Below, piece by piece: positions 6,141 to 56,157 of a DNA stretch of 64,000 bases; the stretch's first letter is position 1; every line of letters starts with the position of its first letter. The position numbers and the translations under genes were made by a program. The notes beneath the pieces are model-generated. The model searched no databases. It had not been told where the DNA came from and saw only the letters and a program-made list of their open reading frames with translations. Source of the stretch: Saccharopolyspora gloriosae (GTDB taxonomy: Bacteria > Actinomycetota > Actinomycetes > Mycobacteriales > Pseudonocardiaceae); NCBI RefSeq assembly GCF_014203325.1, contig NZ_JACHIV010000001.1:310001-374000 (forward strand), read 5' to 3'.

Positions 6141-6250
6141 GACCACCGGCGGGTTCTCAGGTGTCTTCTCGCGAGGACGGCTTTTTTCCCAAGTGGCGGA
6201 GCCACTCGGGAGAAAGATCCCGCAGCGAGAAGACGCCTGAGGTTCCGCTA
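6141..6250 (-). repeat. Structured intergenic repeat, copy 1 (reverse orientation)
   Basis: Outer arms at 6156-6172 and 6225-6241 (CTCAGGTGTCTTCTCGC against GCGAGAAGACGCCTGAG) pair with one exception: T6162 faces a G. That is a G-U wobble in a plus-strand transcript but a mismatch on the other strand. The inner stem is at 6181-6216, with GTGGC/GCCAC around a GGA loop. Conserved flanks are GACCACCGGCGGGTT and GGTTCCGCTA. The copy lies between two plus-strand genes of the PKS operon and ends 46 bases before the ketoreductase start. Confidence 0.85.
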
Positions 6251-6295
6251 CCTGCCCCACTACGCAGATCAAGTCCAGGGAGGAAAAGGAATCCG

Positions 6296-7042
6296 ATGTC
6301 CGAAAGTACAAGGCCCGTGGCGTTGGTGACCGGTGGCTCGCGGGGGATCGGGCGGCACGTGGTGACCCGGCTCGCCGCCGCCGGTCACGACGTGGCGCTG
6401 TGCTACCAATCCGATGCGGACGCCGCGGCGGAAGTGGCGGAGTTGGCCGCGGAGTCCGGTGCCGCGGTGCTGGTCCGGCAGGTCGACGTGGCGGAGCGCG
6501 CCGAAGTGGACCGGTTCGTCAAGGACACCGAGAAGGAGCTCGGCCCCGTGGAGTCCGCGGTTGCCTGCGCCGGGATCGTCAAGGACAACCCGATGGCGCT
6601 GCTCAAGGACGAGGACTGGTCCCGGGTGCTGCGGGTGAACCTGGACGGCACCTACAACCTGTGCAAGTCGGTGCTCTTCCCGATGATCAAGCGCAAGCGC
6701 GGTTCCGTGGTGACGTTGTCCTCGGTCGCCGGGGTGCACGGCAATGCGACGCAGGCGAACTACTCGGCGTCCAAGGCCGGGATCATCGGGCTCACCAAGG
6801 CGCTGGCGAAGGAGGTCGGCCGGTACGGGATCCGGGTGAACGCGGTGGCGCCCGGGTTCATCGAGACCGACATGCTCTCCGGGCTCTCCGAGCAGGCGCT
6901 CGCGGCGTCGACCGCGGCGGTTCCGCTGGGGAGGCTGGGGCGCCCCGAGGAGGTCGCGGACCTGGTGGAGTTCCTGGTCTCGGACCGCGCGTCGTACCTG
7001 ACCTGCCAGGTGCTGCAGCTCGACGGCGGGCTGGTCCTGTGA
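6296..7042 (+). CDS. FabG-type 3-oxoacyl-ACP reductase (ketoreductase)
   Basis: A 248-residue classical short-chain dehydrogenase. The cofactor motif TGGSRGIG is near residue 14, NAG is replaced by CAG (VACAGIV), the catalytic Ser is in VTLSSVAGVHG and Tyr-Lys in ANYSASKAG. The TGGSRGIG motif with no acidic residue directly after the second strand suits NADPH. It should reduce beta-ketoacyl-ACP to beta-hydroxyacyl-ACP before dehydration. I chose ATG 6296 because ggaggaaaagga lies just upstream; the frame extends further 5' but runs into the structured repeat. The 3' end overlaps the isomerase gene by 4 bases. Confidence 0.92.
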   Translation: MSESTRPVALVTGGSRGIGRHVVTRLAAAGHDVALCYQSDADAAAEVAELAAESGAAVLVRQVDVAERAEVDRFVKDTEKELGPVESAVACAGIVKDNPMALLKDEDWSRVLRVNLDGTYNLCKSVLFPMIKRKRGSVVTLSSVAGVHGNATQANYSASKAGIIGLTKALAKEVGRYGIRVNAVAPGFIETDMLSGLSEQALAASTAAVPLGRLGRPEEVADLVEFLVSDRASYLTCQVLQLDGGLVL

Positions 7043-7737
7043 GCACCGCGCGCGGGCCCCGGTTCTACTTCTCGCTGCGCAGCCCGTACTCCTGGCTGGC
7101 CTACCGGGAGATCCGGGAGCGGCACCCGGGCCTGGTGGACCGGCTGGACTGGATCCCGTTCTGGGAGCCCGACGAGCGCTCCACCGAGCTGCTGGCCCAA
7201 CGCGGCGGCCGCTTCCCGTACGCGGCGATGTCCCGGGCCAAGCACCTCTACGTGCTGCAGGACGTGGCGCGGCTGGCGAAGGCGCGGGGGCTGCGGGTGT
7301 CCTGGCCGGTGGACCGGGACCCGGTGTGGGAGGTGGCGCACCTGCCGTACTTCCTGGCGCTGCGCGCCGGGCGCGGGCACGACTACATCTCCCTGGTGTA
7401 CCGGGCGCGCTGGGAAGAGGGGCGCGACGTCAGTGATCCGGCTGTGATCGCCGAGATCGGTGCCGAGCTCGGCCTGGACCCCGCGCGGGTCGCCGGGGCC
7501 GTCGACGACGAGGAGCTGCGCGCGGAAGGCGTCGGCAGCTTGCTGCGGGTCTGCCGCGAAGGCGTGTTCGGGGTGCCGTTCTTCATCGCCGGGCGCGAGA
7601 AGTTCTGGGGCTTGGACCGGCTGGAGCCGTTCCTCGCGGCACTGCCCGACGGTGCCGGGACCGCCGCGATTCCCGGCGTCGGGCCGGAATCCGGCTGGGG
7701 CTCGGTCGACGGCGGACATGCGGGGGGCTGCGGCTGA
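7039..7737 (+). CDS. DsbA-family / HCCA-isomerase-like protein, candidate polyene E/Z isomerase
   Basis: A 232-residue protein of the DsbA-like thioredoxin superfamily related to 2-hydroxychromene-2-carboxylate isomerase. The N-terminus FYFSLRSPYSWLAYREI carries the typical FDxxSPYSYL-type signature, with Ser in place of the CxxC disulfide motif. The C-terminal VFGVPFFIAGREKFWGLDRL is the conserved cis-Pro and closing segment. Proteins of this family accompany highly reducing type II PKSs for cinnamoyl-type acyl groups, where they are implicated in E-to-Z isomerisation of the polyene (family knowledge). No phytoene-desaturase-like gene lies beside it, so a Z-containing polyene rather than a ring is my inference. 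Overlaps the ketoreductase gene by 4 bases. Confidence 0.75.
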   Translation: MSTARGPRFYFSLRSPYSWLAYREIRERHPGLVDRLDWIPFWEPDERSTELLAQRGGRFPYAAMSRAKHLYVLQDVARLAKARGLRVSWPVDRDPVWEVAHLPYFLALRAGRGHDYISLVYRARWEEGRDVSDPAVIAEIGAELGLDPARVAGAVDDEELRAEGVGSLLRVCREGVFGVPFFIAGREKFWGLDRLEPFLAALPDGAGTAAIPGVGPESGWGSVDGGHAGGCG

Positions 7738-7976
7738 CGAGACCTTTCTAGAGGTTTTCCGGATCTCATGGGAATACTTCGGCGCTGGATCGGCCGTTCC
7801 GCGAGGTATGATCTTCCCCGAGCAACATGTTCTGGGGGTTCATGGTGTTCCTGCGGAGCGTGCCGCCCTTCCGGCGGGCGTTCCGAACGTCCCTGCGCTC
7901 GTGACGGACAGGTCACGGGCGTCGTCGGCGGGCACACCACCGGAACTCGCAGACCTCCGCCGTTGAGGCTCGGAAA
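7738..7976. promoter_or_regulatory. Intergenic region before the LysR gene
   Basis: Moderately AT-richer spacer between the isomerase and LysR genes. It has a -10-like TATGAT at 7807-7812 without a clear -35, and an inverted repeat CGTGAC-N6-GTCACG at 7900-7917 that could be a regulator site. No convincing coding sequence. Confidence 0.35.
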
Positions 7977-8975
7977 ATGCGAGGTCGTCCGAAGATGCAG
8001 ATCGAGGTACGCCATGCACGCGTGGTCGCGGCACTAGCGAACGAGGGCAGCATCTCGCGGGCCGCGCAGCGGCTCACGCTCCCGCAGCCGAGCCTGACCA
8101 TGCAGCTGCGACGCATCGAATCGGCGCTGGGCGGGCCGCTGTTCGTGCGCTCCAACTCCGGCATCAGCCCCACGGTGCTGGGGGAGCGGATCATCCCGCT
8201 CATGGTGGAGCTGGCCGCGCGGGCCGACCAGATCGCCTCCGAGTCCAGTTCGGTGTCCGCCGGCGTGATCCGGGTGGCCACCGCGGAATGGACACCCGTC
8301 GGACTGCGCTCCGAACTGGCCGAGCGGCTGCCGGACGTCGAACTGCAGACCGTCACCCTGGAAGCGGCGCTGTGCGTCCAAGCCGTCAGCGACGACGCGC
8401 ACACCGCGTGCGTGGTGCCCTGCGAGGAAGCCGAGGACCCGGTGCGCGGCGCCACCGCCGACCTGGTCTCCGAAGTGATCTTCCGGGAACCGATGTGGCT
8501 GGCGGTGCCCGCCGGGCACCCGCTGGCCGAGGCCGAACTGGCGGACCGGGCGCGGCTCCACTCGCTGACCTGGGTGCGCCACCGGCACGGGCACTGGTTC
8601 CACGTCATGGAGCAGAAGTTCTTCGGCAAGCTGGAACTGGTGGCGCCCGAAGTGGTGCACCACGCCGCCGGCCAAGCGGAAGTGATGTCGTGGGTGACCG
8701 GCGCCGGTGCGGCCGCGCTGGTGAGCCCCACCGGCCCGCTGACGTCCGGGGTCGCGCTGGTGCCGCCGGAGGACGCCGTCTGGCGCAAGGTGCTGCTGGT
8801 CTCCCGGCGCGGAGCGGTGTCCCCGGACCGGTTGCGCGGCATCGCCGACGCGGTGCGGGAGAACTACTGCGTGCTCGCCCGCCGCGTGCCCGCCTACTGG
8901 ACCTGGCTCCGCTGCCACCGCGGCGAAGTCCGCGAGCTCGAAGACCACTTGGACGCCGTCGCCTCCACCGGCTGA
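7977..8975 (+). CDS. LysR-family transcriptional regulator
   Basis: A 332-residue LysR-type regulator. The N-terminal helix-turn-helix (about residues 8-65) is recognisable in RHARVVAALANEGSISRAAQ followed by LTLPQPSLTMQLRRIE. The rest is a diverged LysR substrate-binding domain. ATG 7977 is given; ATG 7995 (MQIEVRHARVV) is an equally plausible start and closer to the usual LysR N-terminus. It sits between the polyene operon and the amino-acyl operon, so it may control one of them in response to a pathway intermediate; the effector is unknown. Confidence 0.87.
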   Translation: MRGRPKMQIEVRHARVVAALANEGSISRAAQRLTLPQPSLTMQLRRIESALGGPLFVRSNSGISPTVLGERIIPLMVELAARADQIASESSSVSAGVIRVATAEWTPVGLRSELAERLPDVELQTVTLEAALCVQAVSDDAHTACVVPCEEAEDPVRGATADLVSEVIFREPMWLAVPAGHPLAEAELADRARLHSLTWVRHRHGHWFHVMEQKFFGKLELVAPEVVHHAAGQAEVMSWVTGAGAAALVSPTGPLTSGVALVPPEDAVWRKVLLVSRRGAVSPDRLRGIADAVRENYCVLARRVPAYWTWLRCHRGEVRELEDHLDAVASTG

Positions 8976-9023
8976 GCACCCCTCCCGCGTCGAACGAACG
9001 GCGCCGGTCTGCGCGCGCACCTC

Positions 9024-9067
9024 CGTCAGCGCCACGTCAGCTTCCCGTCAGCGACGGCTTGGACGCT
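9024..9067 (+). promoter_or_regulatory. SARP-type promoter 1: three CGTCAG repeats at 11-bp spacing
   Basis: CGTCAG occurs at 9024, 9035 and 9046, exactly 11 bp (one helical turn) apart. A -10-like GACGCT starts at 9062, 16 bases after the start of the third repeat. The same layout recurs at 15973 and 32382. It lies upstream of the KAS III-like gene and the amino-acyl operon. Direct repeats at 11-bp spacing just upstream of the -10 are the known SARP operator architecture; assignment to the SARP at the window start is inferred. Confidence 0.75.
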
Positions 9068-9119
9068 GGACGTCGATCCGCCCGCTCGTGTTCGCGCGGC
9101 GCTCGACGAGGAGGAACCC

Positions 9120-9161
9120 ATGAACTCCAGCAAGTGCGCTCCGGCGGCGGTGCGGCGATGA
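9120..9161 (+). CDS. 13-codon micro-ORF coupled to the KAS III-like gene
   Basis: ATG 9120 opens a 13-residue frame (MNSSKCAPAAVRR) behind a strong gaggagga ribosome-binding site. Its stop overlaps the start of the next gene as ATGA at 9158-9161. The downstream gene has no clear ribosome-binding site of its own, so translation of the micro-ORF may deliver ribosomes to it. A second such frame precedes the P450 gene and also ends in Ala-Val-Arg-Arg. Function as a peptide is unknown. Confidence 0.45.
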   Translation: MNSSKCAPAAVRR

Positions 9162-10087: not shown

Positions 10088-10111
10088 GTGGTCCATTTGC
10101 TTTGTGGGCCT

Positions 10112-10265
10112 GTGGCGGAACCTCAGTCGTCTTCTCGCTGCGGGATCTTTTTCCCTAGTGGCTCCGCCACGAGGGAAAAAGCTGTCCTCGCGAGAAGACG
10201 ACTGAGAACCCGCGGGTGGTCCGGCTGCGTGCTGGGTCGCTGCTCAGCGGCTTCGCCGCTGACAG
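10112..10265 (+). repeat. Structured intergenic repeat, copy 2 (forward orientation)
   Basis: Outer arms at 10122-10138 (CTCAGTCGTCTTCTCGC) and 10190-10206 are exact reverse complements. The inner stem at 10147-10181 runs CTTTTTCCC to GGGAAAAAG around GTGGC-TCC-GCCAC. After AACCCGCGGGTGGTC comes an accessory hairpin TCAGCGGCTTCGCCGCTGA at 10244-10262. It lies 24 bases after the KAS III-like stop and before the ATP-grasp gene. Confidence 0.9.
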
Positions 10266-10360
10266 GACGAGGGTTGCGGGTGTTGGTCGGTCGGGGCGGT
10301 GGGTTCACGGGGCGGGTCCGGGTGGGTTCGCGTTGATGAGGGACGGATACGAGGGACGCC

Positions 10361-17222: not shown

Positions 17223-18212
17223 GTGCCTGTCATCACGAGACCGCACGAGTTCAACGTGGACGACCTCTACGTGGACCTGCTGCGGGCGACCGGCCACCGG
17301 TTGTTCCTCAAGTGCGAGGGGTTCAACTTCGCCGGTTCCATCAAGCTGAAGGCGGCCGCCGAGATGATCGCCGCGGCCGAACGAGCGGGGCAGCTGACCC
17401 CCGGGACGATGCTGGTCGAGAGCTCGTCCGGGAACCTCGGCGTCGCGCTGAGCGTGGTCGCCGCCAGCCGCGGCTACCGGTTCGTCTGCGTCACCGACGC
17501 GCGCTGCAACCTGGGCGCCCGGCAGCTGATGCAGTCGCTGGGCGCCGAGGTGCAGGTGATCGGCGAACCGGACGCGGAGGGCGGTCTGCTCGGCGCGCGG
17601 CTGCGCCGGGTGAAGCGGATCTGCGCGGAGAACGAGGGCAGCGTCTGGCTCAACCAGTACGCGAACCCGGCGAACTGGCTCGCGCACTACCGCGCGACCG
17701 GTCCCGAGGTGCTGCGCGACTTCCCCGACCTGGACGTGCTGTTCGTCGGCGCCGGCACCACCGGGACGTTGATGGGCTGCGCGCGCTACCTGCGCGAGGT
17801 GCGGCCCGCGGTGCGGGTGGTGGCGATCGACTCGGAAGGTTCGGTCACCTTCGGCACCCCGCCCGCGCCGCGCATGATCCCCGGGCTGGGCACCGGGGTC
17901 CGCCCGCAGCTGCTCGACGAGTCCTTCGTGGACGACGTGGTGCACGTGGCGGAGGTGGACACGGTGCGCACGGCGCGGCGGCTGGTGGCCGACGGATTCG
18001 TGTTCGGCGGCTCCACCGGAACCGTGGTGTGCGGCGCGGCCCGCTGGCTGGAGCGCAACGGCGCCGGGCCGGAGACGACCGCCGTGGCGCTCGCCCCGGA
18101 CCTGGGGGAGCGGTACCTGGACACGGTGCACAACGAGCAGTGGGTCAGCGACATCTACGGCGCGGACGCGATCGCCTCGGCCGATCTCGGCGGAGGGGTG
18201 ACCGGGGCGTGA
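17223..18212 (+). CDS. sbnA: N-(2-amino-2-carboxyethyl)-L-glutamate synthase (SbnA-like)
   Basis: A 329-residue fold-type II PLP enzyme of the cysteine-synthase family. The PLP lysine is in [12 protein letters not shown], the substrate-carboxylate loop in [12 protein letters not shown] and the phosphate-binding glycines in [11 protein letters not shown]. SbnA homologues condense O-phospho-L-serine with L-glutamate, and the product is cleaved by SbnB to L-2,3-diaminopropionate. The phosphoserine-type assignment rests on pairing with sbnB. I use GTG 17223 because gggaga lies upstream; GTG 17205 is an in-frame alternative. The NRPS starts 19 bases downstream. Confidence 0.9.
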
Positions 18213-18231
18213 GGTCTTCGAGGAGAGTGCG

Positions 18232-21200
18232 ATGACGGCGGTCGAGACACCGAGCCTGCCGCTTTCGGCGGGACAGCGCGACATCTGGTTCGACGAGGTG
18301 GCGGCGGCGAGCGCCGCGGGGGACTCCGGCGGGAGCGACTCCGGCGGGAGCGCCGCGTGCAACTCCGGCGGGAGCGCCGCTTACAACACCGCCGGGTACC
18401 TGGACATCTCCGGGCCGTTGGACGTGGAGCTGTTCACCCGCGCGGTCGCCGGGCTGGTGGCCGAAGCCGAGTGCATGCGCTGCCGCTTCACCGAGGTCGA
18501 CGGCGAACCCCGGCAGTGCGTGGAACCGCTGCCCGAGCCGCCGCTGCAGCTGCGCGACTTCAGCGGCGAGACCGACCCGGCCGCCGCCGCGCGGGACTGG
18601 ATCACCGCGGAGCTGGGCCGTCCCTTCGCGCTCACCGAGTTCCCGCTGTTCCGGCTGGCCCTGGTGCGGGTCGGGCCGGACCGGGTGTTCTTCTCGATGT
18701 GCATCCACCACCTGCTGTGCGACGGGTTCAGCCAGGTGGTGTTCTGGCGCAGGCTGGGCGAGCTCTACGACGCGCTGCGCACCGGTGAGTCCGCTGTGGA
18801 CGGTGCGCTGCCGCCGCTGCGCGAGCTGATCGACGCCGAGGCCTCCTACGCGGTGTCCGGGCAGGCCGGCCGGGACCGCGAGTTCTGGGCGAAGCGCTTC
18901 CCGCGGACTCTCGACCTGGTCACGCTCTCCCGCACGGACGCCGCGCCCGCGCAGCGCTTCCACCGCGCCACCGAGGTGGTGGGCCACCGCGTGCTGGAAC
19001 GGGTGCGGGCCGCCGCGCGCGAGGCGAAGGTGACCGTGCCGACCGTGCTGCTGGCCGCTTTCGGCCTCTACACCCAGCGGATGACCGGCGGCCCGGACGT
19101 GCTGCTGTCGATGCCGGTGACCGCGCGGGTGAACCGCCGGATGCGCGCGATCCCCGGCATGGTGAACAACTACGTGCCGCTGCGGCTGCGGGTGCACCCC
19201 GAGATGTCCCGCGCGGAACTGCTCAAGCAGCTCTCCGGTGAGCTCGCCGGGGCGATCAAGCACCAGCGGCACCGGGTCAGCCGGATCCGGCAGGGCATGG
19301 GACTGGCCAGCGACGACAACCGGCCGTTCGGCCCGTTCGTGAACGTGCTGCCGCAGGAGACCCGGCCGAGCCTCGGCGACTGCGAGGTCGTCGTGCACAA
19401 CCTGTCCACCGGGCTCGTCGACGACGTGGAGGTCACCGTCGTCGACGCCCCCGACGGCGGGGTGGAGGTGCACCTGAGCGCGAACCGCGCCCGGTACTCC
19501 GAGCAGGAGACCCGGGAGCACTCGGCCCGGTTCTGCGCGTTCCTGCGCCGGTTCGCCGAGCTGGACCCGGGTGGCAGGCTCGCGCAGCTGGAGCTGGTCG
19601 GCGAGCACGAGCGGCAGCGGCTGCTGCGCGCCGGCACCGGGCCGGACGGACCGGTGGACCCGGTGGACGTCGTCGTCCGGGTGCGCGAGCGCGCCGCGCG
19701 CACCCCGGACGCGGTCGCGGTCGCCGACGACGCGGGCGAGGTGAGCTACGCGGAGCTGGTGGCTCGGGCGAGCGCAGTCTCCCGCCGGGTGCCGTCGGGC
19801 GTGGTCGGGGTGCTGGCCGCGCCGGGCACCGGGTTCGTCACGGCGGTGCTGGGCGTGCTCGGTTCGGGCGCGGCGTTCCTGCCGCTGGACGTGCACGCGC
19901 CCGCGGGGCGCACCGCGGGGCTGATCGCGGACGCGGGCTGCGCCTGCCTGATCACCGATGCCGCGCACCGCGAGCTCGCCGCCGAGGTGGCCGGCTCGGC
20001 GGACGTGCTGGTGCTGGACGGCGCCGCCGACGCGGAGCTGCTGCCCGTGGCGGGCGCGGACGACGACCTCGGGTACGTGATCTTCACGTCGGGCTCCACC
20101 GGTCGCCCGAAGGGCGCGATGGTGCACCGCCGCGGCATGACCAACCACCTGCTGGCGAAGGTGGAGGACCTGTCCTTGGTCGAGGGCGATGTGCTGGTGC
20201 ACAACGCGCCGGTGACCTTCGACATCGCGGTGTGGCAGATGCTCGCGGGCCTGCTCACCGGCGCTCGGGTCCGGGTGGTGCGGCGGGACGTGGCCGCCGA
20301 CCCGGACTCGCTGTTCCCGCTGACCGCAGCGGAATCCGTGACGGTGCTGGAGGTGGTGCCCTCGCTGCTGCGGGCCGCGCTGGACGGCTGGGACGCCGGG
20401 CTCGCGGTGCCCGCGCTGAGCGCGCTGCGCCTGCTGGTCGTCACCGGCGAACCGCTGCCGCCGGACCTGTGCACCCGCTGGTTCGCCCGGTTCCCGGGCA
20501 TCCCGCTGGTGAACGCCTACGGGCCCACCGAGTGCTCCGACGACGTCACCCACGGCAGGTTCGCCGCCGGGGAGCAGGAGTTCGGCGTGCGGGTGCCGAT
20601 CGGGCGTCCGGTGCGCCGCACCAGCCTCTACGTGCTCGGCGACCAGCTGCGCCCGGTGCCGGAGGGCGTGCCGGGGGAGCTCTACGTCGGTGGCACCGGC
20701 GTCGGCCGCGGTTACCTCGGTGATCCGGCGAAGACGGCGCTCGCGTTCCTGCCGGACCCGTTCGCCGCCGACGGCTCCCGGATGTACCGCACCGGGGACC
20801 GCGTGGTGCTGCGCCCCGACGGGCAGCTGGAGTTCCTGGAGCGCCGCGACTTCCAGGTGAAGATCCGCGGCCACCGCATCGAGCTCGGCGAGATCGAAGT
20901 CGCCCTGCGCCAGGTCGAAGGCGTGGCCGACGCCGCCGTCGCGGTGGTGCCGGACCAGGCCGGGCACAAGCGGCTCGTCGCCCACCTGGTGCCGACCGAG
21001 CCGGGAACGCCGCTGGACACCGCGCGGGTGCGCGCGGATCTCGGCGCCGCGCTGCCGTCGTACATGGTCCCGGCGGTGGCGATGACCTTGGACCGGTTGC
21101 CGTTGACGGGGAATGGAAAAGTGGATCGCACAGCGCTGCCCAAGCCGGAACTCACCGCCGCCTCGGCCACCCGCTCGCGGACGCCGCAGGAGGAGGTGCT

Positions 21201-24200
21201 GTGCACCGTGCTCGCCGAGGTGCTGGGCCTGCCCTCGGTGGACGTGGACGACAACTTCTTCGCCATCGGCGGCGACAGCATCAGCTCCATCCAGGTGGTC
21301 AGCCGCGCCCGCGGCGCCGGGCTGGCGCTCACCCCGCGCGAGATCTTCCGCTGCAAGACGGTCGCCGAGCTGGCGAAGGTCGTGCAGCCGATCGGCGCCC
21401 GCGCGCTGCCGAGCGCGGCCGACGGCGTCGGCGCGGTCGAGCTGACCCCGATCGCCGAGCAGCTGCGCGAGGACGCGGGCACCCGCACCGAGCAGGTCCG
21501 CGAGTTCAGCCAGCACGTGGTGCTCGCGCTGCCGGACGGGGTGACCGCCGACTCGCTGGTCCCCGCGCTGCAGGCCGTGCTCGACCACCACGACGCGCTG
21601 CGCCTGGTGCTGCACGTGCCCGCCGAGGGCTTCTGGGCGCTGGAGACCGCGCCCGCCGGCTCGGTCGACGCGGCCGAGCTGCTGCGCACCGCCGACGCCG
21701 CCGGGGACGCGGACGCGGAGTGCGCCCGGCTGGTCCGCGAGGCCCGCGCCGAGCTCGCCCCGCAGGACGGGAAGGTGCTGCGCGGGGTCCTGGTGCGCAC
21801 CGGTGCGGGCCGCCGCGACCGGCTGGTGCTGGTGGTGCACCACCTCGCCGTGGACGGGGTGTCCTGGCGAGTGCTGGTGCCGGACCTGGCCGCCGCCTGG
21901 CGGGCGGTGGACTCCGGCGTTCCCGTGGAGCTGGGCGCGGTGGGCACCTCGCTGCGCCGCTGGGCGCAGGTCCTCGGGGAGCAGGCCCGTTCCACGGCGC
22001 GGATGCGGGAGCTGCCGGTGTGGACCGAGCAGCTGCGCGACTGCGGTCCGCTGGGGGAACGCCCGCTGGACCCGGCCCGCGACGTGCGCGGCACCGCCCG
22101 CTCGCTGCGGGTGGAGCTGTCGGCGGAGACCACCGGCGCGCTGCTCACCGAGGTGCCCGCCGCGTTCCACGCCGAGATCAACCCGGTGCTGCTGACCGGG
22201 CTCGCGATCGCGCTGGCCGACCGGCGCCACCGGCGCGGGCTCGCGGGCACCGCCTCCCGGATCGAGCTGGAGGGCCACGGCCGCACCGGTCTGTCCGAGG
22301 ACCTGGACCCGAGCCGGACGGTGGGCTGGTTCGCCTCCGCGTTCCCGGTGCGGCTGGACCCCGGCGAGCTCGACGCGGCGGAGGTCTTCGCCGGTGGACC
22401 GGCGATCGCCGAGGCGTTCAAGCCGGTGAAGGAGCAACTGCGCGCGCTGCCGGACGACGGGCTGGGCTACGGCCTGCTGCGCTACGTCAACCCGCAGACC
22501 CGCGCCGCGCTCGCCGCCGCCGGGCGGCCCGAGATCGGCTTCAACTACCTCGGCCGCTTCGGCGTGGACGAGGAGGCGGAGTGGTCGTTCACCGGCGGCG
22601 GGGAGGCCGTCGGCGTGGGCGAGCACCCGGACATGCCGCTGCGCTACGCGGTGGAGTTCGCCTCGCTCACGGAGGACCGCGCCGACGGGCCGCACCTGGT
22701 GGTGGACTGCACCTGGGCGGGCGAGCTGCTGTCCGAACAGGACGCTCGCGAGCTCATCGAGGGCTGGTTGCGGGCGCTGGAGGCGCTGGCCCGCCACGCC
22801 GCCACCCCCGGTGCCGGCGGTCGCACGCCCTCGGACTTCCCGCTGCTCTCGTTGCCGCAGCAGGAGATCACCGGTTTGGAGCGCGAGCTCGGCCCGATCG
22901 AGGACCTGCTGCCGCCGACCCCGCTGCAGAAGGGGCTGCTGCTGCAGGCCGAGCGGGACCAGGACGGCCTGGACGTCTACACGCTCCAGGTGACCGTGGA
23001 CCTGGAAGGTCCGCTGGACACCGACGCCGTCCGCGCCGCCGGGCAGGCCCTGCTGCGCAGGCATCCCGCGCTGCGCTCCGGTTTCCGCCACCTCCGCTCC
23101 GGCGAGCCGGTGCAGGTGGTGCTGCCGGAGGTCGAGCTGCCCTGGCAGGAGACCGACCTGTCGCACCTGCCCGCGGACGAGCGCGCCGCTGAACTGGAAC
23201 GGCTCACCGAGCAGGAGTGGGCCCGCCGCTTCGACCTCGCCCGGCCGCCGCTGGTGCGCCTAGGTGTGGTGCGCACCGAGCCCGACCGCTTCCGTCTCAT
23301 GTGGACGGTGCACCACGTGGTGCTGGACGGCTGGTCCAACCCGATCTTCGGCCGGGAGCTGTTCGAGCTCACCGCCAACGGCGGGGACGCGGGCGCGCTG
23401 CCCGAGGTGGCGCGCTACTCCGGCTACCTGGAATGGCTGGCCCGCCAGGACGTCGAGGCCGCCCGGGAGGCGTGGCGCGCGGCGCTGGGCACCGCGGACG
23501 AGCCGACGCTGCTGGCCCCCGGCGCGGCCGGGCACGCCCCGGAACTGCCCGAGGCGCTGGTGGTGGACCTGCCGGACGGGCTCACCGGGCGGCTCGACGA
23601 GTTCGCCCGCGCCCACCGGCTCACGCCGAACACCGTGGTCCAGGGCGTGTGGGCGATCCTGCTGGGTCAGCTCACCGGCCGCCGCGACGTCGTGTTCGGC
23701 GCGGTGCACTCCGGCCGCCCGGCGGAGCTGCCCGGCGTGGAGGCGGTGCTGGGCTCGTTCCTGACCACGCTGCCCGTCCGGGTCGACGCCACGCCGGGCC
23801 GCCCGGTCGCCGCGCTGCTCGCCGAGCTCCAGGAGCAGCAGTTCGCGCTGGACCCGCACCGGCACCTGGGCCTGCCCGAGGTGCAGCGGACCGCGGGCAC
23901 GAGCGCCGCCCTGTTCGACACGGTGCTGAGCTTCCACAACTACCCGATGTCCGACGCCCGCGAGCTCAGCGGCATCGTCCCCGGCGTGCGGGCCCTCGGC
24001 GGCGTCGCCAGGGTCGTCGCCGAATACCCGCTCGCGCTGGGCGTCTACCCCGGCGAACCGATGCGGCTGGAGGCGCAGTTCCAGCCCGCGCTGCTGGACG
24101 CCGCCACCGCCGCCGGGATCGTGGACCGCTTCGTGCGGCTGCTGCGCGCCGTGCTCGCCGAGCCCGACGTGCGGGTGGGAGCGCTGGAGTCGCTCACCCC

Positions 24201-27200
24201 GCAGCAGCGGCTGGAGGTCGAGCGCTTCGGTGGCACCATCACCGAGGCTCCGCGCGCGGTCGCCCCGGACCTGCTGGCCGAGCAGGCCCGCGCGCGCCCG
24301 GAGCACGAGGCCGTGGTGTTCGGCGCGGACTCCCGCAGCTACGGCGAGCTGGCCGGGCGCGCGAACCGGCTGGCCCGCTGGCTCATCGCGCGCGGCGCCG
24401 AGCCGGAAGGCCTGGTCGCGCTGGTGCTGCCGCGCTCGCACCTGATGGTGGAGGCGGTGGCCGGCGTGCTGGCCAGCGGCGCGGCCTACCTGCCGGTGGA
24501 CCCGAAGCTGCCCGCCGAGCGCATCGAGCACATGCTCGCCGACGCCCGCCCCGCGCTCGTGCTGGGCACCGGCGGCACCCTCGCCGGGCTGTCCGATGTG
24601 GACGTTCCGGTGGTGGCGCTGGACGGCGTGCGGGACGAGCTCGCCGCGTTCGACGACGCCCCGGTGACCGACGCGGAGCGGGCGCGCCCGCTGCTGCCCG
24701 AGCACCCGGCCTACGTCATCTACACCTCCGGCTCCACCGGCCGCCCCAAGGGCGTCGTGGTCCCGCACGGGTCGCTGTGCGCGATGATCGCCAGCCACGG
24801 CGAGCGGTTCGGCCTGGACCGCGACAGCCGGATGCTGCTGTTCGCCTCGTTCAGCTTCGACGCCTCCGTGTGGGAGATCGGCCTCGCGCTGCTGCGCGGC
24901 GGCACCCTGGTGCTCACCGACGACGAGACCCGGATGCCGGGCGAGCCGCTGGTGGACCTGATCTCCGCCGCGGGCATCACGCACCTCGGCATCCCGCCGG
25001 TGGTCGCCGCCTCGCTGCCCGCGGGCAGCGCACTGCCCGCCGGGCTCACCGTGGTGGTCGCGGGCGAGGCCTGCTCCGCCGAAGTGGTGGCCCGCTGGGC
25101 CGACCGGGTCCGGCTGTTCAACGGCTACGGGCCCACCGAGGCCGTGGTCGGCGCCACGATCAGCGGACCGCTCTCAGGCGACCAGCGCCCGCCGATCGGC
25201 GAACCCACCACCGCGCACCAGGTGCACGTGCTCGACGCGGCGCTGCGGCCCGTTCCGGTCGGCGCCGTCGGCGAGATCTACCTCAGCGGCGGGCTCGCCC
25301 GCGGCTACCTGGACCGGCCGGGCCTCACCGCCGAGCGGTTCGTGGCCGACCCGTTCCGGGACGGTGGCGAACGGATGTACCGCACCGGCGACCTCGGGCG
25401 ATGGCGCCCGGACGGGCAGCTGGACTACGCGGGCCGCTCCGACGACCAGGTGCAGCTGCGCGGATTCCGCATCGAACTCGGCGAAGTCGAATCGGTGCTC
25501 GGGGCGCACCCCGAGGTGGAGCAGGCCGTGGTCGTGGTCCGCGAGGACGACTCGGGCGACAAGCGGCTCATCGGCTACGCCGTCACCGCCGGCGGCGACG
25601 GCGTGCTCCCGCGCGGCCTGCGCGAGCACCTCGCCGACTCGCTGCCGGACTACATGGTCCCGGCCGCGCTGGTGGCGCTCGGCTCCTTCCCGCTGACCTC
25701 GCAGGGCAAGGTCGACCGGGCCGCGCTGCCGGAACCCGAGTCCGCGCCGCAGGCGGGCCGCGCACCGCGCACCCCGGTGGAGGAGATCCTCTGCCACGTC
25801 TTCGCCGACGTGCTCGGCGTCCCGCAGGTGAGCATCGACGACGACTTCTTCGCCGCAGGCGGGCATTCGCTGCTGGCGACCCGCGTGGTGGGCCGGGCGC
25901 GCTCGGCGCTGAACGTGGAGCTGCCGATCAAGGACCTGTTCGAGGCGCGCACCGTCGCCGCGCTCGCCGAGCGGGTCGGCGGGGCCGAGCGCGCGCGGCG
26001 GTCGCTGGAACCGGCCGACCGCTCGGGCCGGCTCCCGCTGTCCTACGCGCAGCGCAGGCTCTGGTTCCTCAACCGGCTGGAAGCGGCGAGCACCGGCACC
26101 TACACCGTGCCGCTCGCGCTGCGGCTGACCGGGGAGCTCGACGTGGCGGCGATGCGCGCGGCGCTCGGCGACCTCGTCGACCGGCACGAGAGCCTGCGCA
26201 CCGTCATCCCGGACGACGACGGCCTGCCGCACCAGCGGGTGCTGCCCGCGGCCGTCGCACGACCGGACCTGCCGGTGCGCGACCTCGACGAGGCCGAGCT
26301 GGGTGCGCGGCTGACCGCGGAGGCCGACCGCGGCTTCGACCTGAGCGCCGAAGCGCCGCTGCGCGCCCAGGTGTTCCGGCTCGACGCCCGCGAGCACGTG
26401 CTGCTGCTGGTGCTGCACCACACCGCGTTCGACGGCTGGTCCATCGCGCCGCTGACCCGCGACCTCACGTCGGCCTACCGGGCGCGCTGCGCGGGGAAGG
26501 CGCCGCGCTGGACACCGCTCCCGGTGCAGTACACCGACTACGCGGTCTGGCAGCGCGACGTGCTGGGCGCCCCGGACGACCCGGACAGCGCGCTCGCACG
26601 GCAGCTGGAGCACTGGACCCGTGCGCTCGCCGGGCTGCCCGAGGAACTGGCGCTGCCCACCGACTTCCCGCGTCCCGCCGTCGGCGGCAACCACGGCGAC
26701 GAGGTCGAGTTCGTCGTGGAACCCGAGCTGTACGGGGGGCTGCTGGCGGTCGCGCGGGAAACCGGGGTCACCGCGTTCATGGTGTTCCAGGCCGCGCTGG
26801 CGGTGCTGCTGACCAAGCTCGGCGCCGGGACGGACATCCCGGTGGGCAGCCCGATCGCGGGCCGCACCGACGAGGCCACCGACGACCTGGTGGGCTTCTT
26901 CGTCAACACCATCGTGCTGCGCACCGACACCTCCGGGGACCCGGAGTTCGGCGAGCTGCTGCACCGGGTGCGGGAGGCCGACCTCGGTGCCTACGCCCAC
27001 CAGGAGGTGCCGTTCGAGCAGGTCGTGGAGGCGTTGAACCCGCGCCGCTCGTTGTCCCGGCACCCGCTGTTCCAGGTGATGCTGGTGCTGCAGAACGACC
27101 AGGACGAGCCGGCCGCGCTGCCGGGCCTGGACGCGCGGGTGCAGCCGGTGGTCTCGCCGCGCGCCAAGTTCGACCTCACGGTGCAGCTCGACGAGCTGCA

Positions 27201-30054
27201 CGCGGGCGGCGCGCCGGACCGGGTGCGGGGCGCGCTGGAGTACAGCACCGACCTGTTCCGCCGGGAGACGGTGGCCGCGCTGGCGCAGCGGTTCCTGCGG
27301 GTGCTCGCCGCGATCGCCGAAGACCCGTACCGGCGGCTCAGCGAGCTGGACGTGCTGCTGCCCGGCGAGGAAGCGGAGCTGCGCGGCACCGGCACCGGAG
27401 CGGTCGTCGCCGACGCCGCGGACGGCGTGGTGGAGCGGGTGCGCGAGCGCGCCGCCCGCACCCCGGACGCGATCGCCGTCGCCGACGACACCGGCGAGGT
27501 GAGCTACGCGGCGCTGGTCGCGCGGGCGAGCGCGCTGTCCCGGCGATTGCCGGGCGCGGGCCCGGTCGGCGTGCTGGCCGCGCCCGGAGCCGGTTTCGTC
27601 ACCAGCGTGCTGGGCGTGCTCGGCGCCGGTGGCGCGTTCGTCCCGCTCGACGTGCACGCCCCGCGTCCGCGCCTCGCCGCGCTGCTCACCGACAGCGGCG
27701 CCCGGCACGTGGTGGCGGACGCGGCGCACGCGGAGCTAGCCGGGGAGGTCGTCGCGGACTCCGGCACTGCGGTCGAGGTGGTGGTGCTCGACGGCGTGGA
27801 GGACGCGGAGCTCGCCCCACCGCTGGGCTCCGATCCGGACCTCGGCTACGTGATCTTCACATCGGGTTCGACGGGTCGTCCGAAGGGTGCGATGGTGCAC
27901 CGGCGCGGCATGGTCAACCACCTGCTGGCGAAGGTGGAGGACCTGGCGCTGGTGGAGGGCGACGTGCTGGTGCACAACGCGCCGGTGACCTTCGACATCG
28001 CGGTGTGGCAGATGCTCGCGGGCCTGCTCACCGGCGCCCGGATCAGGGTCGTCCCCCGCGAGGTCGCCGCGAACCCGGACGCGCTGTTCGCGCTGATCGG
28101 CTCCGACGGCGTGAGCGTGCTGGAGGTGGTGCCCACGCTGCTGCGGGCCGCCCTCGACTCCTGGGACACCGGGACGGCACCGGACCTGGCGGGGCTGCGC
28201 TGGCTCGTCGTCACCGGCGAAGCGCTGCCACCGGACCTGTGCGCCCGCTGGTTCGCCCGCTTCCCGGAGATCCCGCTGCTCAACGCCTACGGGCCCACCG
28301 AGTGCTCCGACGACGTCACGCACGCGGTGCTCACCGCCTCCGACGTGATCGGCGGCAGCCGCGCCCCGATCGGCCGGCCGGTGCGCAACACCCGGCTGCA
28401 CGTGCTCGACGACCACCTGCGGCCGGTGCCCGCCGGGATCGTCGGGGAGCTCTACGTCGGCGGCACCGGAGTCGGCCGCGGCTACCTGGACGACCCGGCC
28501 AAGACCGCGCAGACCTTCCTGCCCGACCCGTTCGCGGCCGACGGATCGCGGATGTACCGCACCGGCGACCGGGTGCTGCAGCGGCCCGACGGGCAGCTGG
28601 AGTTCCTGGAACGGCGGGACTTCCAGGTGAAGATCCGCGGCCACCGCATCGAGCTCGGCGAGATCGAGGTCGCCCTGCGCGACCTGGACCGGGTCGGCGA
28701 CGCCGTGGTGGACGTGGTCGTCGACCCCGGCGGGCACAAGCGGCTCGTCGGCTACCTGGTCGCCGCCGACGCGGACGGCGTCGAGGTCGAGCAGGTCCGC
28801 GACCGGCTCGCCCGCGTGCTCCCCGAGTACATGGTGCCGTCGGCGTGGGCGGTGCTCGCGGCGATGCCGACCACCGCGCACGGCAAGGTCGACCGCGCCG
28901 CGCTGCCCGCCCCCGAGATCACCGGCGAGGCCCGCGGCAGAGAACCGAGCGGCCCGGTGGAGGAAGCGCTGTGCGGCATCCTCGCCGACGTGCTCGGGCT
29001 GCCCGGAGTCGGCGCGGAGGAGAACTTCTTCGCCGTCGGCGGCGACAGCATCACCTCGATCCAGGTGGTCAGCCGCGCCCGCGCGGCCGGAATCCCGCTG
29101 GTGGTGGCCGACCTGTTCGTGCACCAGAACGTCGCCGCGCTCGCCCTCATCGCGCGGCAGCGCGAGCAGGAAGCGGGCGAGGACGCGGTCGAGGCGATGG
29201 GCCGGGTCTTCGACGAGGTCCGCGACACCGAAGGCACCGACCCGTTCGGCACCGTGCTCGCGATGCGCCCGGACCGCCCGCTCACGCCGGTGTTCTGCCT
29301 GCACAGCGGGGTCGGATTCAGCCTCCCGTACGTGGGCCTGACCGCGCACCTGGGCGACCGCCCGATCTACGGCCTGCAAGCGCCGGGGATCACCGAGCTC
29401 GCCGAGATCCCGGAGACGCTGCCCGAACTGGCCGCCGACTACGCCCGCCGGATCCGGGACATCCACCCGGACGGCCCGTACCACCTGCTCGGCTGGTCCT
29501 TCGGCGGCGTGCTCGCGCACGAGATCGCGGTGCGGCTGCAGGCCGACGGCGCCGAAGTCGGCGTGGTCGCCGACCTCGACGCCTACCCGCCGGAACCCGA
29601 CGAGGGCGACGACGACGAGCAGGCGATGCTCGGCTGGGTCTGGGAGCTGATCGGGCACGAGCGGGCCGAGCTCACCGGCGACCGGCTCACCGACGACCGC
29701 ATCGCCGACACCCTGGAGCAGGACGGCAACCCGCTCGCCGAGATGGGCCGCGACCGGGTGCTGGCGATGCTGCGGGTGATGCGCGCCCACTCGCGGATGT
29801 CGGTGCGCCACCGGCCCGGAGTGCTGCGCGGCTCGATGCTGCTGTTCACCGCCACCGGCGGGCTCTCCGAGCAGGAGATCGAGGCGAAGGCCCTGCGATG
29901 GGCGCCGCACGTGGACGGTGCCGTGCGCGCGCACCGGATCGACTGCGGGCACGACGACATGATGGACGCGGAACCGCTGGCCCGGATCGGTGTCGTGGTG
30001 GCCGCCGAGCTCGACCGGGTGGACCGGTCGCAGTCGGGAGGGGAACGATCGTGA
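18232..30054 (+). CDS. Trimodular NRPS: C-A-PCP-E-C-A-PCP-C-A-PCP-TE
   Basis: A 3940-residue synthetase. C1 residues 10-465 (HHLLCDG near 158, probably accepting an acyl donor). A1 480-975, PCP1 983-1053 (Ser1016 in GGDSI), E 1069-1520 (HHLAVDG near 1203, EGHGR, NYLGRF), C2 1534-2000 (HHVVLDG near 1694, D-donor type as expected after E), A2 2007-2505, PCP2 2510-2580 (Ser2546 in GGHSL), C3 2597-3050 (HHTAFDG near 2729), A3 3057-3563, PCP3 3575-3645 (Ser3606), TE 3674-3936 (Ser3756 in GWSFGG). My pocket readout by motif alignment gives DIWEVTADDK for both A1 and A3, with Glu and two Asp suited to an amino side chain, plausibly diaminopropionate; A2 gives DAWGVAGVGK, an uncharged pocket I cannot assign. 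Predicted product: acyl-D-X-Y-X released by the TE as acid or macrocycle. Confidence 0.93.
18322..18384 (+). repeat. In-frame tandem repeat inside the first condensation domain
   Basis: A 15-bp unit GACTCCGGCGGGAGC at 18322-18336 is followed by two 24-bp units (18337-18360 and 18361-18384) that begin with the same 15 bases and continue GCCGCNTNC. The encoded peptide is [21 protein letters not shown]. It lies between the first core motif of the condensation domain and the conserved YN-x-x-GYLDI stretch, so it is an in-frame expansion of a surface loop. Confidence 0.8.
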
Positions 30055-30900: not shown

Positions 30901-31054
30901 GTGGCGGAACCTCAGCCGCCTTCTCGCTGCGGGATCTTTTTCCCTAGTGGCTCCGCCACGAGGGAAAAAGCTGTCCTCGCGAGAAGGCGGCTGAGAACCC
31001 GCGGGTGGTCTTCTTGCTCTGGTGGTCGCTGCTCAGCGGCTTCGCCGCTGACAG
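30901..31054 (+). repeat. Structured intergenic repeat, copy 3 (forward orientation)
   Basis: Outer arms at 30911-30927 (CTCAGCCGCCTTCTCGC) and 30979-30995 are exact reverse complements although they differ from copy 2 at two positions. The inner stem at 30936-30970 is identical to copy 2. The accessory hairpin TCAGCGGCTTCGCCGCTGA is at 31033-31051. It lies 31 bases after the permease gene and before the P450 gene. Confidence 0.9.
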
Positions 31055-46413: not shown

Positions 46414-46568
46414 GTGGCGGAACCTCAGCTGCTTCCTCGCTGCGGGATCATTTTTCCAAGTGGCTCCGCCACGAGGAAAAATGCTGTCCTCGCGAGGAAG
46501 CAGCTGAGAACCCGCGGGTGGTCACCTTGCTCAAGCCGGTCACTGCTCAGCGGCTTCGCCGCTGACAA
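46414..46568 (+). repeat. Structured intergenic repeat, copy 4 (forward orientation)
   Basis: Outer arms at 46424-46440 (CTCAGCTGCTTCCTCGC) and 46492-46508 are exact reverse complements with a variable segment unlike any other copy. The inner stem (46449-46483) also differs in a paired way: CATTTTTCC faces GGAAAAATG, where the other forward copies have CTTTTTCCC and GGGAAAAAG. The accessory hairpin TCAGCGGCTTCGCCGCTGA is at 46547-46565. Confidence 0.9.
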
Positions 46569-51496: not shown

Positions 51497-51590
51497 CCCA
51501 GGCAGCCGTGGGCGGCGAAGCCGTGCCGTGGGCTGCGAAGCAAGCCTGCCTTGCGGCCGAAGGCCGTGCCTGTATGTGCGAAGCACATAG
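51497..51590. repeat. Small-hairpin tail next to structured repeat copy 5
   Basis: Short palindromic units in series (GGCGGCGAAGCCG, GCGGCCGAAGGCCG) and an accessory hairpin TATGTGC-GAA-GCACATA at 51573-51589. The corresponding hairpin at copy 6 is TATTCGC-GCA-GCGAATA, so both arms changed together. Confidence 0.65.
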
Positions 51591-51606: not shown

Positions 51607-51715
51607 GACCACCGGCGGGTTCTCAGGTGTCTTCTCGCGAGGACGGCTTTTTCCCTCGTGGCGGAGCCACTTGGGAAAAAGATCCCGCAGCGAGAAGACA
51701 CCTGAGGTTCCGCTA
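51607..51715 (-). repeat. Structured intergenic repeat, copy 5 (reverse orientation)
   Basis: Outer arms at 51622-51638 (CTCAGGTGTCTTCTCGC) and 51690-51706 are exact reverse complements. The inner stem at 51647-51681 has GTGGC-GGA-GCCAC. Flanks GACCACCGGCGGGTT and GGTTCCGCTA match copies 1 and 6. It lies between the rpfB terminator and ksgA. Confidence 0.9.
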
Positions 51716-52829: not shown

Positions 52830-52931
52830 TACTATGCGGGAAATCCATCCCGAGCGGCTGAGAGACCTGGCTCCACGACGCCGCAGCAACCACTCCACGA
52901 GTGAGCAGGTGCTAACGCCAGGGTCGATGGA
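52830..52931 (+). ncRNA. SAM-I (S-box) riboswitch upstream of metNIQ
   Basis: P1 arms TCCATC (52844-52849) and GATGGA (52926-52931) close the element. Inside are the S-box landmarks: CGGC-TGAGAGA-CCTGGCTC with the pairing GCCGCAGCAACC (P2 with kink-turn), a P3 hairpin CACTC-CAC-GAGTG and the conserved AGGTGCTAACGCC segment. A -10 TACTAT at 52830-52835 puts the transcript start just before P1. High S-adenosylmethionine should switch off the methionine transporter genes that begin 274 bases downstream. Confidence 0.87.
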
Positions 52932-53205
52932 GTTGTGGTGTCTGAAACTCTGCTCGAAGGCGAACGCGCGCCCCGGACCAGCCGTCGGCGTGCCCGCGGT
53001 GGTCGCGCCCGGACCGGATCCGGCCCGCACGGCCTCGCGCTGACCCAACGCCGAGTGATCGATCACGGACGCCGCACCACGACGGCCTGTCGCCGCGTCC
53101 GCTGACGACCGAAGTCGTCGCAGCCCCTTCCCCAGCCTTTCTGTTCCTCCTTCCCGGCCGATGCGGCATGCCCGCCGGTCCGGCGTGAGCTGATGCGGAG
53201 CGATC
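52932..53205 (+). promoter_or_regulatory. metN leader downstream of the riboswitch
   Basis: 274 bases between the riboswitch and metN, presumably containing the expression platform. I do not see an obvious intrinsic terminator with a T-run, so control may be by masking the GGAG site at 53197-53200 or by Rho. No gene is convincing here. Confidence 0.4.
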
Positions 53206-54908: not shown

Positions 54909-55016
54909 TCGCCACCGCACTTCAGTCGAATCGGCCGACGGCAGGGGTCCCCGCGGACCCGCTGCCGGTACCGGTGCGCGTCACCGGACGGCCTCCATTC
55001 CAGAAAGGACGCACTG

Positions 55017-55829
55017 ATGCGTATTCGTTCCCTGGCGGTCGTGCTCACGGCCGCTTCGCTGGCGCTGGCGGGTTGCGGTGGTAGCGGCACGGAAGCCGCG
55101 CAGGACCCGAACGCTCCGCTGACCATCGGCGTGAGCCCGCAGCCGCACGGCGAGATCCTCAAGTACGTCGACGAGAACCTCGCTCCGAAGGCGGGCATCG
55201 ACCTGGAGATCGAGCAGTTCGACGACTACAACCGGCCGAACGAGGCCGTCGCCAACGGCGAGCTGGACGCGAACTACTACCAGCACAAGCCGTACCTGGC
55301 GGAGTACCAGGCGCAGCGCGGCGGTGAGTTCGAGTGGGTGCAGACGGTGCACCTGGAGCCGCTGTCGATCTACTCCAAGAAGGTCAAGTCCCTCCAGGAG
55401 CTGCCGGACGGCGCGCGGATCGCGCTGCCCAACGACCCGTCGAACCTGACCCGCAGCCTGAAGCTGCTGCAGGACAACGGCGTGATCAAGCTCAAGCCGG
55501 GCGCCGAGCAGGGCGCCGGGGTGCGCGACGTCGCGGAGAACCCGAAGAAGATCGAGTTCCAGGGGCTCTCCAGCGACCAGCTGCCCCGCGCGGTCGACGA
55601 CGCCGACGCGGCGATCGTGAACGGCAACTACGCCCTCAAGGCCGGTTTGAAGGACCCGCTCGTCGTGGAGAAGGCGGAGAACAACCCGTACGCGAACGGC
55701 CTGGTCGCGTCCCCGGCGATGGCCAAGGACCCCCGCATCCAGAAGCTCGCCGAACTCCTGCGCTCCCCCGAGGTCGAGGACTACATCAACAAGACCTACG
55801 GCGGAGTCTCGGTAATCCCGGCTTCCTGA
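55017..55829 (+). CDS. metQ: Methionine-binding lipoprotein
   Basis: A 270-residue NlpA/MetQ-family binding protein. The lipobox LALAGC is at residues 16-21 after a short signal peptide, so the mature protein is lipid-anchored. The body has the NlpA core: TIGVSPQPHGEILKYV, NGELDANYYQHKPYLAEY, IALPNDPSNLTRSLKLLQ and AIVNGNYALKAGL. It delivers methionine to MetNI. It starts 108 bases after metI, with ggA-rich agaaagga upstream. A small-hairpin array and structured repeat copy 6 follow the gene. Confidence 0.95.
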   Translation: MRIRSLAVVLTAASLALAGCGGSGTEAAQDPNAPLTIGVSPQPHGEILKYVDENLAPKAGIDLEIEQFDDYNRPNEAVANGELDANYYQHKPYLAEYQAQRGGEFEWVQTVHLEPLSIYSKKVKSLQELPDGARIALPNDPSNLTRSLKLLQDNGVIKLKPGAEQGAGVRDVAENPKKIEFQGLSSDQLPRAVDDADAAIVNGNYALKAGLKDPLVVEKAENNPYANGLVASPAMAKDPRIQKLAELLRSPEVEDYINKTYGGVSVIPAS

Positions 55830-55835
55830 CCCGAA

Positions 55836-56031
55836 GGCCGTGAGGCAGAACGGCGAAAGCCCCAGCCTCACGGCCAAAGGCCGCGCCTGACGGCGAAGCC
55901 GTGCAGTGGGGCGGGCGAAGCCACGCCTGCCCTGCGGCCAAAGGCCGTGCTTCGCGGCGAAGCCGTGCCTGGGACGAGCGAAGCGAAGTCTGCCTTGCGG
56001 CGTAGCCGTGCCTGTATTCGCGCAGCGAATA
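55836..56031. repeat. Array of small hairpins between metQ and repeat copy 6
   Basis: A roughly 200-base run of imperfect 25-35-base units built from GGCGAAGCC, GGCCAAAGGCC and GGCGTAGCC hairpins separated by GTGCCTG-like spacers. It begins with a 10-bp inverted repeat (GGCCGTGAGG at 55836-55845, CCTCACGGCC at 55866-55875) just after the metQ stop and ends with TATTCGC-GCA-GCGAATA at 56015-56031. No gene. Confidence 0.65.
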
Positions 56032-56047
56032 GCCCACGTCACAAAGC

Positions 56048-56157
56048 CGACCACCGGCGGGTTCTCAGTCGGTCTCTCGCGAGGACAGCTTTTTCCCTCG
56101 TGGCGGAGCCACTCGGGAAAAAGATCCCGCAGCGAGAGACCGACTGAGGTTCCGCTA
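56048..56157 (-). repeat. Structured intergenic repeat, copy 6 (reverse orientation)
   Basis: Outer arms at 56064-56080 (CTCAGTCGGTCTCTCGC) and 56132-56148 are exact reverse complements, with yet another variable segment. Inner stem 56089-56123 with GTGGC-GGA-GCCAC. Flanks match copies 1 and 5. From 56158 to 56447 the spacer contains repeated CCCACACGCCAAGCCGAAC-like stretches and no convincing gene. Confidence 0.9.

Follow-up and report, generated by a model that had tools for sequence, protein, structure and literature searches.

The stretch of DNA analysed here (the window, 64,000 nucleotides) spans positions 310001-374000 of the single 6.83-Mb contig of Saccharopolyspora gloriosae, and window coordinates count from its first letter. 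It contains six copies of a hairpin-forming repeat, each lying between two genes of the plus strand and three in each orientation, as a preliminary description of this DNA had claimed and as independent gene calls agree. The six hairpins lie where that description placed them and have the complementary arms it reported, exact in five copies; the sole exception is copy 1, where the mismatch is a G-U pair in the plus-strand RNA and C.A in the opposite strand. The paired change noted in the inner stem of copy 4 is also real. The repeat is genuine, has no name and belongs to a known kind of element; the turnover of its arms is unusually high. Below, G000 is the genome of S. gloriosae itself, G001, G002, G003 and so on are the genomes of relatives, and L numbers are sequence stretches.

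Structure and distribution of the repeat

The six copies are a small sample of a family with at least 294 matches in the genome: the half motif CTCAG-N7-CTCGCTGCGGGATC has 294 exact matches in G000 (155 forward, 139 reverse), and the reversed control has none. Together with the window, 80 genome stretches were read (1.64 Mb) and 136 copies were kept, one of 137 candidates being dropped as false. Since 63 of the 80 stretches were chosen to cover copies with an arm starting CGG, and 17 were unselected, arm frequencies among the 136 copies are biased. Class A accounts for 34 copies and class B for 96; the other 6 are unclassed.

The hairpin, with its edges given as CTCAG to CTGAG, has the layout CTCAG-N7-CTCGC-TGCGGGATC-(inner stem and loop)-GCTGTCCTC-GCGAG-N7'-CTGAG. 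The inner stem and apex vary too, the inner stem occurring in several forms that are self-complementary as a rule. The repeat extends beyond the hairpin. On its left is a conserved linker, often ending GTGGCGGAAC or GTAGCGGAAC, which as a rule is preceded, in the canonical orientation, by a degenerate stretch following a stop codon. On its right AACCCGC.GGTGGTC is followed by a spacer and then by a second small hairpin, of the form TCAGCGGC-TTC-GCCGCTGA in most class B copies and TATGTGC-TTC-GCACATA or similar in class A. Every base of the AACCCGC right after the hairpin is present in 96-99% of the 136 copies. In the predicted consensus, GCGG pairs with CCGC across an unpaired AAC/AAC at the hairpin base. 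The four bases ahead of GCGGAAC are GGTG in 64, GGTA in 27 and CTCA in 20 of the 136 copies, and only the GGTA group yields GTAG. Degenerate outer inverted repeats enclose the element, and these outer ends are complementary at the level of the class (e.g. CTTTGATCTTG/CAAGATCAAAG). When seven fragments were folded (the six copies and a longer piece of copy 2), each outdid all of its 200 shuffles.

Two variations on this plan were observed. In class A copies strings of small TTCG-type hairpins (GGCACGGCTTCGCCGC and the like) follow in the canonical orientation, and these look like a second, independently multiplying repeat. In L157 (genome position 5556758) and L129 (2286617) TGCGGGATC is swapped for a longer stretch such as TGCGCCCCTGGCCGGGTGTCACAG, and a diverged form of this variant is present at the 2286617 site of G002.

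By DNA similarity the element was matched in 15 of 59 relatives besides G000, all five congeners included. Weak single matches occurred in G012 and G021, and in G056 (E = 4e-4), which is from another family of the order. The preliminary description had suggested a covariance-model search of this and related genomes; at 1e-8, and with strict filters which lose weak matches, 6 of 121 genomes of the order matched (G000 included), all in one family, three of them with a single copy. The ksgA surroundings in 80 named loci (at most 20.8 kb per genome) gave clear matches only in Saccharopolyspora kobensis. As far as tested, the element is confined to one family, probably the Pseudonocardiaceae, within which the skeleton, including the asymmetric loops, is conserved between genera. 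Tail-to-tail pairs of copies 50-70 bp apart, resembling composite dimers of repetitive extragenic palindromic sequences (REPs), were seen in two other genera (L238 9103-9424 in G018; G137 C2 4542999-4543339).

Covariation of the arms

Identical complementary 7-mers are found in the arms of 111 of the 136 copies, compared to a mean of 16 and a maximum of 32 in 2000 tries with shuffled partners (run on the 137 candidates). Copies with arms that do not complement each other, which the preliminary description had regarded as potentially refuting, do exist, but they are a minority (25/136, with one or more mismatches each). In an alignment of 54 copies, 12 pairs change on both sides, with 155 double-change cells versus a shuffled mean of 44.7; none of 500 shuffles was as high, and shifting the partner by one to three columns left 18 to 59 such cells. 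Complementary change across copies, as first noticed in the window, is thus borne out. The inner stem of these copies covaries as well. Alignment is poor at the apical pairs, each of which has between 9 and 20 unpaired cells out of 54 (one inner pair has 22), and they add nothing to this result.

The arm sequences are diverse, the chance that two random copies share a 7-mer being 0.057. The arm allele is linked, though incompletely, to the form of the inner stem, the spacer and the class. In 11 of the 25 mismatched copies both arms are established alleles, which indicates that exchange between copies also occurs. Among the places listed (100 of 170 in G002, 50 of 89 in G003, a few of them incomplete), largely other sets of arms sit on the same skeleton, e.g. 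TTGGTCT and TGAGCCT in G002 and CGGTTCC and CGCCCTC in G003, and by our own reading 20 of the 100 and 18 of the 50 have mismatched arms. In other genera the CTCGC/GCGAG part also changes in pairs, e.g. to CTGGC/GCCAG in G017.

Placement beside genes

Genes were called with our own codon-usage script, independently of any reference annotation. None of the 136 hairpins lies inside a called gene. The flanking genes are convergent for 70 copies, tandem for 61 and divergent for 5, the called intergenic gaps of the same stretches numbering 229, 702 and 244, respectively. In 82 of the 136 copies the hairpin starts 35-55 bp past a codirectional stop codon, compared to a mean of 9.2 and a maximum of 20 in 2000 random placements within the same gaps. 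TGA was rejected as a target word, since TGA and TAG account for 83 and 14 of 97 stop codons and for 90% and 9% of called genes (p = 0.18). A preference for the sense orientation was also rejected: among tandem genes 38 copies are sense and 23 antisense (p = 0.07), and between convergent genes orientation is uninformative.

The placement after stop codons and the scarcity of copies between divergent genes, together with the strong covariation and the very stable RNA fold, would suit an RNA element of 3' untranslated regions, i.e. a transcribed hairpin which stabilises or ends mRNAs and whose arms are kept complementary by compensatory mutation under selection on the RNA fold. We consider this explanation unlikely, although it deserves more weight than the other rivals discussed below. 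Selection on the sense RNA is spoken against by the mismatched arms, as there is no surplus of sense G-U pairs over C.A: counting distinct cells over three genomes, G-U occurs 17 times and C.A 38 times on the sense strand (p = 0.006), next to 26 cells of other kinds, a strand skew which rests partly on rows of G002 and G003 picked by eye and on related copies that are not independent. Seen from the opposite strand, the surplus C.A cells would be G-U, or G.T, which is more stable; our case does not rest on this excess. Furthermore, 23 of the 61 copies between tandem genes are antisense to both genes, a U-run directly past the hairpin, the mark of an intrinsic terminator, was found neither in the six copies nor in the set of 136, and at sites 375980 and 5554459 the empty allele has terminator-like hairpins that are still present next to the copy. 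The placement itself is shared with the REPs of other bacteria, which likewise adjoin gene 3' ends according to the accessible part of PMC3733652. Of the two causes offered in the preliminary description, selection on a folded molecule is, at the level of RNA, the less probable, and arm-copying during replication is backed by footprints outside the stem, described below. An outer stem as the covarying closing helix of one large RNA was rejected, since in 60 class B copies the outer repeats paired with their own partners on average no better than with others (p = 0.14); they are treated here as inverted repeats at the level of the class.

Turnover at orthologous sites

Orthologous gaps were sought in G001, G002 and G003 for 21 distinct G000 copies. 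In G001, 19 of the 21 could be placed, in 18 gaps with flanks 90-97% identical. An intact element is present in six of the 18 gaps (flanks 92-96%), two of the six have mismatched arms, and none has the same 7-mer as the like-oriented G000 copy; at 2306 kb, where two opposed G000 copies share one gap, the single G001 copy shares CGGCTTC with the oppositely oriented one. The G001 ortholog of copy 3 has CGTTCTT in both arms. Judged by eye, there are also damaged orthologs (at 2282824 with the same allele but one change, at 2312134 with a different allele), remnants that have lost the hairpin (316241, 361706 and 366148) and seven gaps that are free of the element, so the comparison of presence and absence proposed earlier yielded both intact copies and element-free sites. 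At the site of copy 5 (L222 ~8282-8331) the hairpin is gone from G001, the rest of the element is kept and a short CCGGAG scar is left, as if the palindrome alone had been deleted.

In G002, 18 copies were placed, and the same gaps hold eight distinct intact copies, three of them in the opposite orientation and none with the same 7-mer. The arm is CGGCCTT at the orthologous site of copy 6, and at the site of copy 4 G000, G001 and G002 carry three different alleles. G003 has no intact element among 13 placed copies. Under independent filling, sharing of six of 18 gaps is improbable (P = 0.0002 and 0.006 at assumed occupancies of 5% and 10%). From these comparisons we infer common descent with replaced arms in G001 and some re-insertion in G002. 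The idea that the empty G001 sites reflect insertions in G000 was weakened by site 2286617, where G002 also carries a copy, though diverged, and G001 is the only one of the three genomes placed that lacks the element.

Probable footprints of arm-copying

Among 119 G000 matches to a strict expression, 113 retain the unpaired AAC/AAC at the base of the hairpin, a tally in which the copy at 366148 is possibly counted twice, as L114 overlaps the window. L134 and L138 carry GTT, which complements the right side, in place of the left AAC, and the remaining left linker is normal. The right side of L132 reads GTTCCGCACCCGGACTCCTGCGCAGGCC, a near-complement of its own left flank over ~29 bases, in place of AACCCGC and the second hairpin. 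Both sides are reversed in L140, an apparent flip of the whole hairpin within its flanks. In G002, L249 has GTT on the left side and an inverted inner loop, and an inverted apex occurs at 3714286. Other exceptions at the base are unlike arm-copying (AAA in L142, AGG in L164, CAC/CAC in L255 of G002). As far as can be read from sequence, the footprints appear to be direct signs of one arm having been copied onto the other, or of flipping.

These changes bear on a further explanation, namely that an old and immobile repeat family is maintained by gene conversion only, with copies overwriting one another in tracts that span the hairpin, so that the arms change together. Alleles shared between sites, mosaics and chimeras would agree with it, as would the loss of the allele at all six shared G001 sites, which is what random draws give (P ~0.70). 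However, it does not easily explain the changes from AAC/AAC to GTT/AAC and the flips, nor the element-free sites, nor the largely different allele sets among the places listed in G002 and G003, and we regard it as improbable.

Orientation to the replication fork

For G000 the replichores were set from the sign change of the GC skew near 3.06 Mb and from an origin-side boundary at 6.45 Mb; in G002 and G003 they were taken as the halves of the contig. Copies codirectional with the fork number 92 of all 136 and 70 of the 96 in class B, and still 35 of the 46 class B copies between convergent genes, compared to 863 of 1480 called genes (58%). G002 and G003 lean in the same direction (60 of 100 and 32 of 50 listed places, p ~0.06 each).

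The class B bias, the asymmetric loops conserved between genera and the presence differences that start right after stop codons could be accounted for by a single-strand-DNA transposon, inserted at the fork next to stop codons by an enzyme other than a Y1 transposase or reverse transcriptase, in which complementarity is mostly selected to give a hairpin that the enzyme can bind. We give this possibility little credence, and the least among the rivals considered here. In G002 and G003 the bias towards the fork direction is weak, class A does not show it, and neither an enzyme nor an autonomous copy was found: a 2.34-Mb scan for separated halves revealed no gene lying between them, and its 50 unpaired half-motifs, which by eye are mostly chance matches or damaged copies, include no separated pair.

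Discussion

On balance we favour the explanation that the element is high-copy, non-autonomous palindromic DNA of the type of REPINs (hairpins formed by two REPs) or miniature inverted-repeat transposable elements (MITEs), kept palindromic by DNA arm-copying and by exchange between copies. The palindrome would fold in single-stranded DNA during replication, and a polymerase switching template between the arms would write a change in one arm onto the other; at times the hairpin may be flipped, lengthened or deleted, and copies would also swap sequence through recombination. Stems would thereby remain complementary even as their sequence changes, and the covariation can be explained without a selected fold. 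The asymmetric loops TGCGGGATC/GCTGTCCTC survive arm-copying and are thus presumably kept by selection as a putative binding site; the simplest candidate to bind there would be an enzyme acting in trans to move the element. The mechanism is partly backed by the footprints; we infer its remainder, including how the element moves.

In the literature, compensatory changes in stems have been attributed to template switching during replication, as have the homogenisation of arms and the inversion of loops (accessible part of PMC8794818), the latter two also being given as its marks in the accessible part of PMC8604942. The element resembles such quasipalindrome mutation in its arm homogenisation and in the inversion of spacer or loop. 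It differs in being a dispersed repeat family, whereas the cases in the parts of these papers available to us concern rRNA stems, microRNAs and coding inverted repeats.

A number of points weigh against this explanation. The footprints are few (5 of 138 matches) and some could be recombination between copies, and the role of template switching in keeping short stems is called less clear in the accessible part of PMC8794818. The C.A excess stems from G002 and G003, the numbers in G000 alone being 9 sense G-U and 8 C.A, and fork bias is lacking in class A (16 of 34 copies codirectional), on replichores whose origin-side boundary was chosen from a noisy skew. The outer repeats do not match their own partners better than others. 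Presence and absence differences may be losses as well as gains, and the edges of the element-free sites are not sharp enough to fix a target-site duplication. As to parent enzymes, only two families were searched for, and neither was matched in G000: the Y1 transposase (PF01797) had no match in G000, G001, G002, G003, G018, G019 or G096, and the reverse transcriptase (PF00078) had none in G000, its control being positive in 3 of 14 genomes.

PF01797 was matched in 5 of 11 relatives (G004, G005, G010, G017 and G137), and the element was absent, at E below 0.1, from the six Y1 loci that were fetched. A REP-associated tyrosine transposase (RAYT) or a reverse transcriptase as the driver was accordingly rejected for G000, and a retro-element (group II intron, retron or diversity-generating retroelement) would require the reverse transcriptase that G000 did not yield.

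No Rfam family matched any of the six copies at gathering score, and with a permissive threshold the 601 bases around copy 2 gave only two microRNA matches, far below their cut-offs; a known RNA family was thus rejected, and with it the Rfam match that would have countered the preliminary description. No paper naming the element was found among openly licensed papers. The statement that it is no named element hence holds for Rfam and the open-licence literature, but the kind itself is known, as REPIN/REP. The likeness lies in high-copy extragenic palindromes at gene 3' ends, few of them between divergent genes, and in compensatory arm changes; the accessible part of PMC3116915 reports compensatory changes on both hairpin sides of REPINs as well as excision events. 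Unlike a REPIN, which has two short REPs around a spacer, the element is a single 85-bp hairpin with conserved asymmetric internal loops; it also lacks a conserved GTAG or CGTC tag, and G000-G003 lack a Y1 match. Its identity as a RAYT-borne REPIN is not established, although it behaves like one.

According to the part of PMC3733652 that was accessible, CGTC REPs have stems of 8-9 bp and the CGTC tag, have no dedicated transposase and lie close to gene ends. For the actinobacterium M. tuberculosis the same paper mentions REP-like families without a tag; the word actinobacteria is absent from its main text. The element shares the placement at gene ends with these tagged and untagged REPs, a likeness by description only, and has neither the CGTC tag nor stems of 8-9 bp. 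With MITEs it has in common that it is short, non-coding, present in high copy and provided with class-level outer inverted repeats. It differs from them in that the hairpin, not the ends, is the conserved part, and a parent transposase and target duplication are not established for it.

More tentatively, the family might be self-templating. In this view a mobile palindrome would have its arms renewed where they stand, by arm-copying and by exchange between copies, in less time than its genomic surroundings take to diverge by 5-8%. This would give RNA-like covariation in the absence of RNA selection, with the loops as the putative site of a mover other than RAYT that acts at the fork, beside stop codons.

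Conserved RNA structure is ordinarily proved by covariation. In this family covariation is very strong, across tens to hundreds of copies in each of several related genomes, and yet the footprints point to copying between DNA arms. The family therefore offers a natural system in which to measure how often RNA selection is mimicked by template switching. It is also a REPIN-like family in actinobacteria.

Coordinates and neighbouring features of the window

Table 1 Positions of the hairpin copies and other features in the window
Feature	Window position	Strand	Description
Copy 1, hairpin	6156..6241	-	86 bp, class A; canonical arms GCGTCTT/GTGTCTT, one mismatch
Copy 1, second small hairpin	6108..6122	-	class A; ATGTGC-TTC-GCACAT, canonical orientation
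Copy 2, hairpin	10122..10206	+	85 bp, class B; arm TCGTCTT, exact complement; begins 34 bp past stop codon at 10087
Copy 2, second hairpin	10244..10262	+	TCAGCGGC-TTC-GCCGCTGA
Copy 3, hairpin	30911..30995	+	85 bp, class B; arm CCGCCTT
Copy 3, second hairpin	31033..31051	+	
Copy 4, hairpin	46424..46508	+	85 bp, class B; arm CTGCTTC, inner stem ATTTTTCC
Copy 4, second hairpin	46547..46565	+	
Copy 5, hairpin	51622..51706	-	85 bp, class A; arm GTGTCTT
Copy 5, second small hairpin	51573..51589	-	TATGTGC-TTC-GCACATA
Copy 6, hairpin	56064..56148	-	85 bp, class A; arm TCGGTCT
Copy 6, second small hairpin	56015..56031	-	TATTCGC-TGC-GCGAATA
String of TTCG-type hairpins	55829-56064		upstream of copy 6
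SAM riboswitch	52842-52933	+	Rfam RF00162
Very long open frame	18202-30054	+	called as a single gene of ~11.9 kb

The SAM riboswitch, the sole Rfam match in the window, stands ahead of genes for an ABC transporter with a NIL domain, a permease and an NlpA lipoprotein, and this locus of the methionine-uptake type is flanked by a ksgA-like gene and by a gene for a GHMP kinase.

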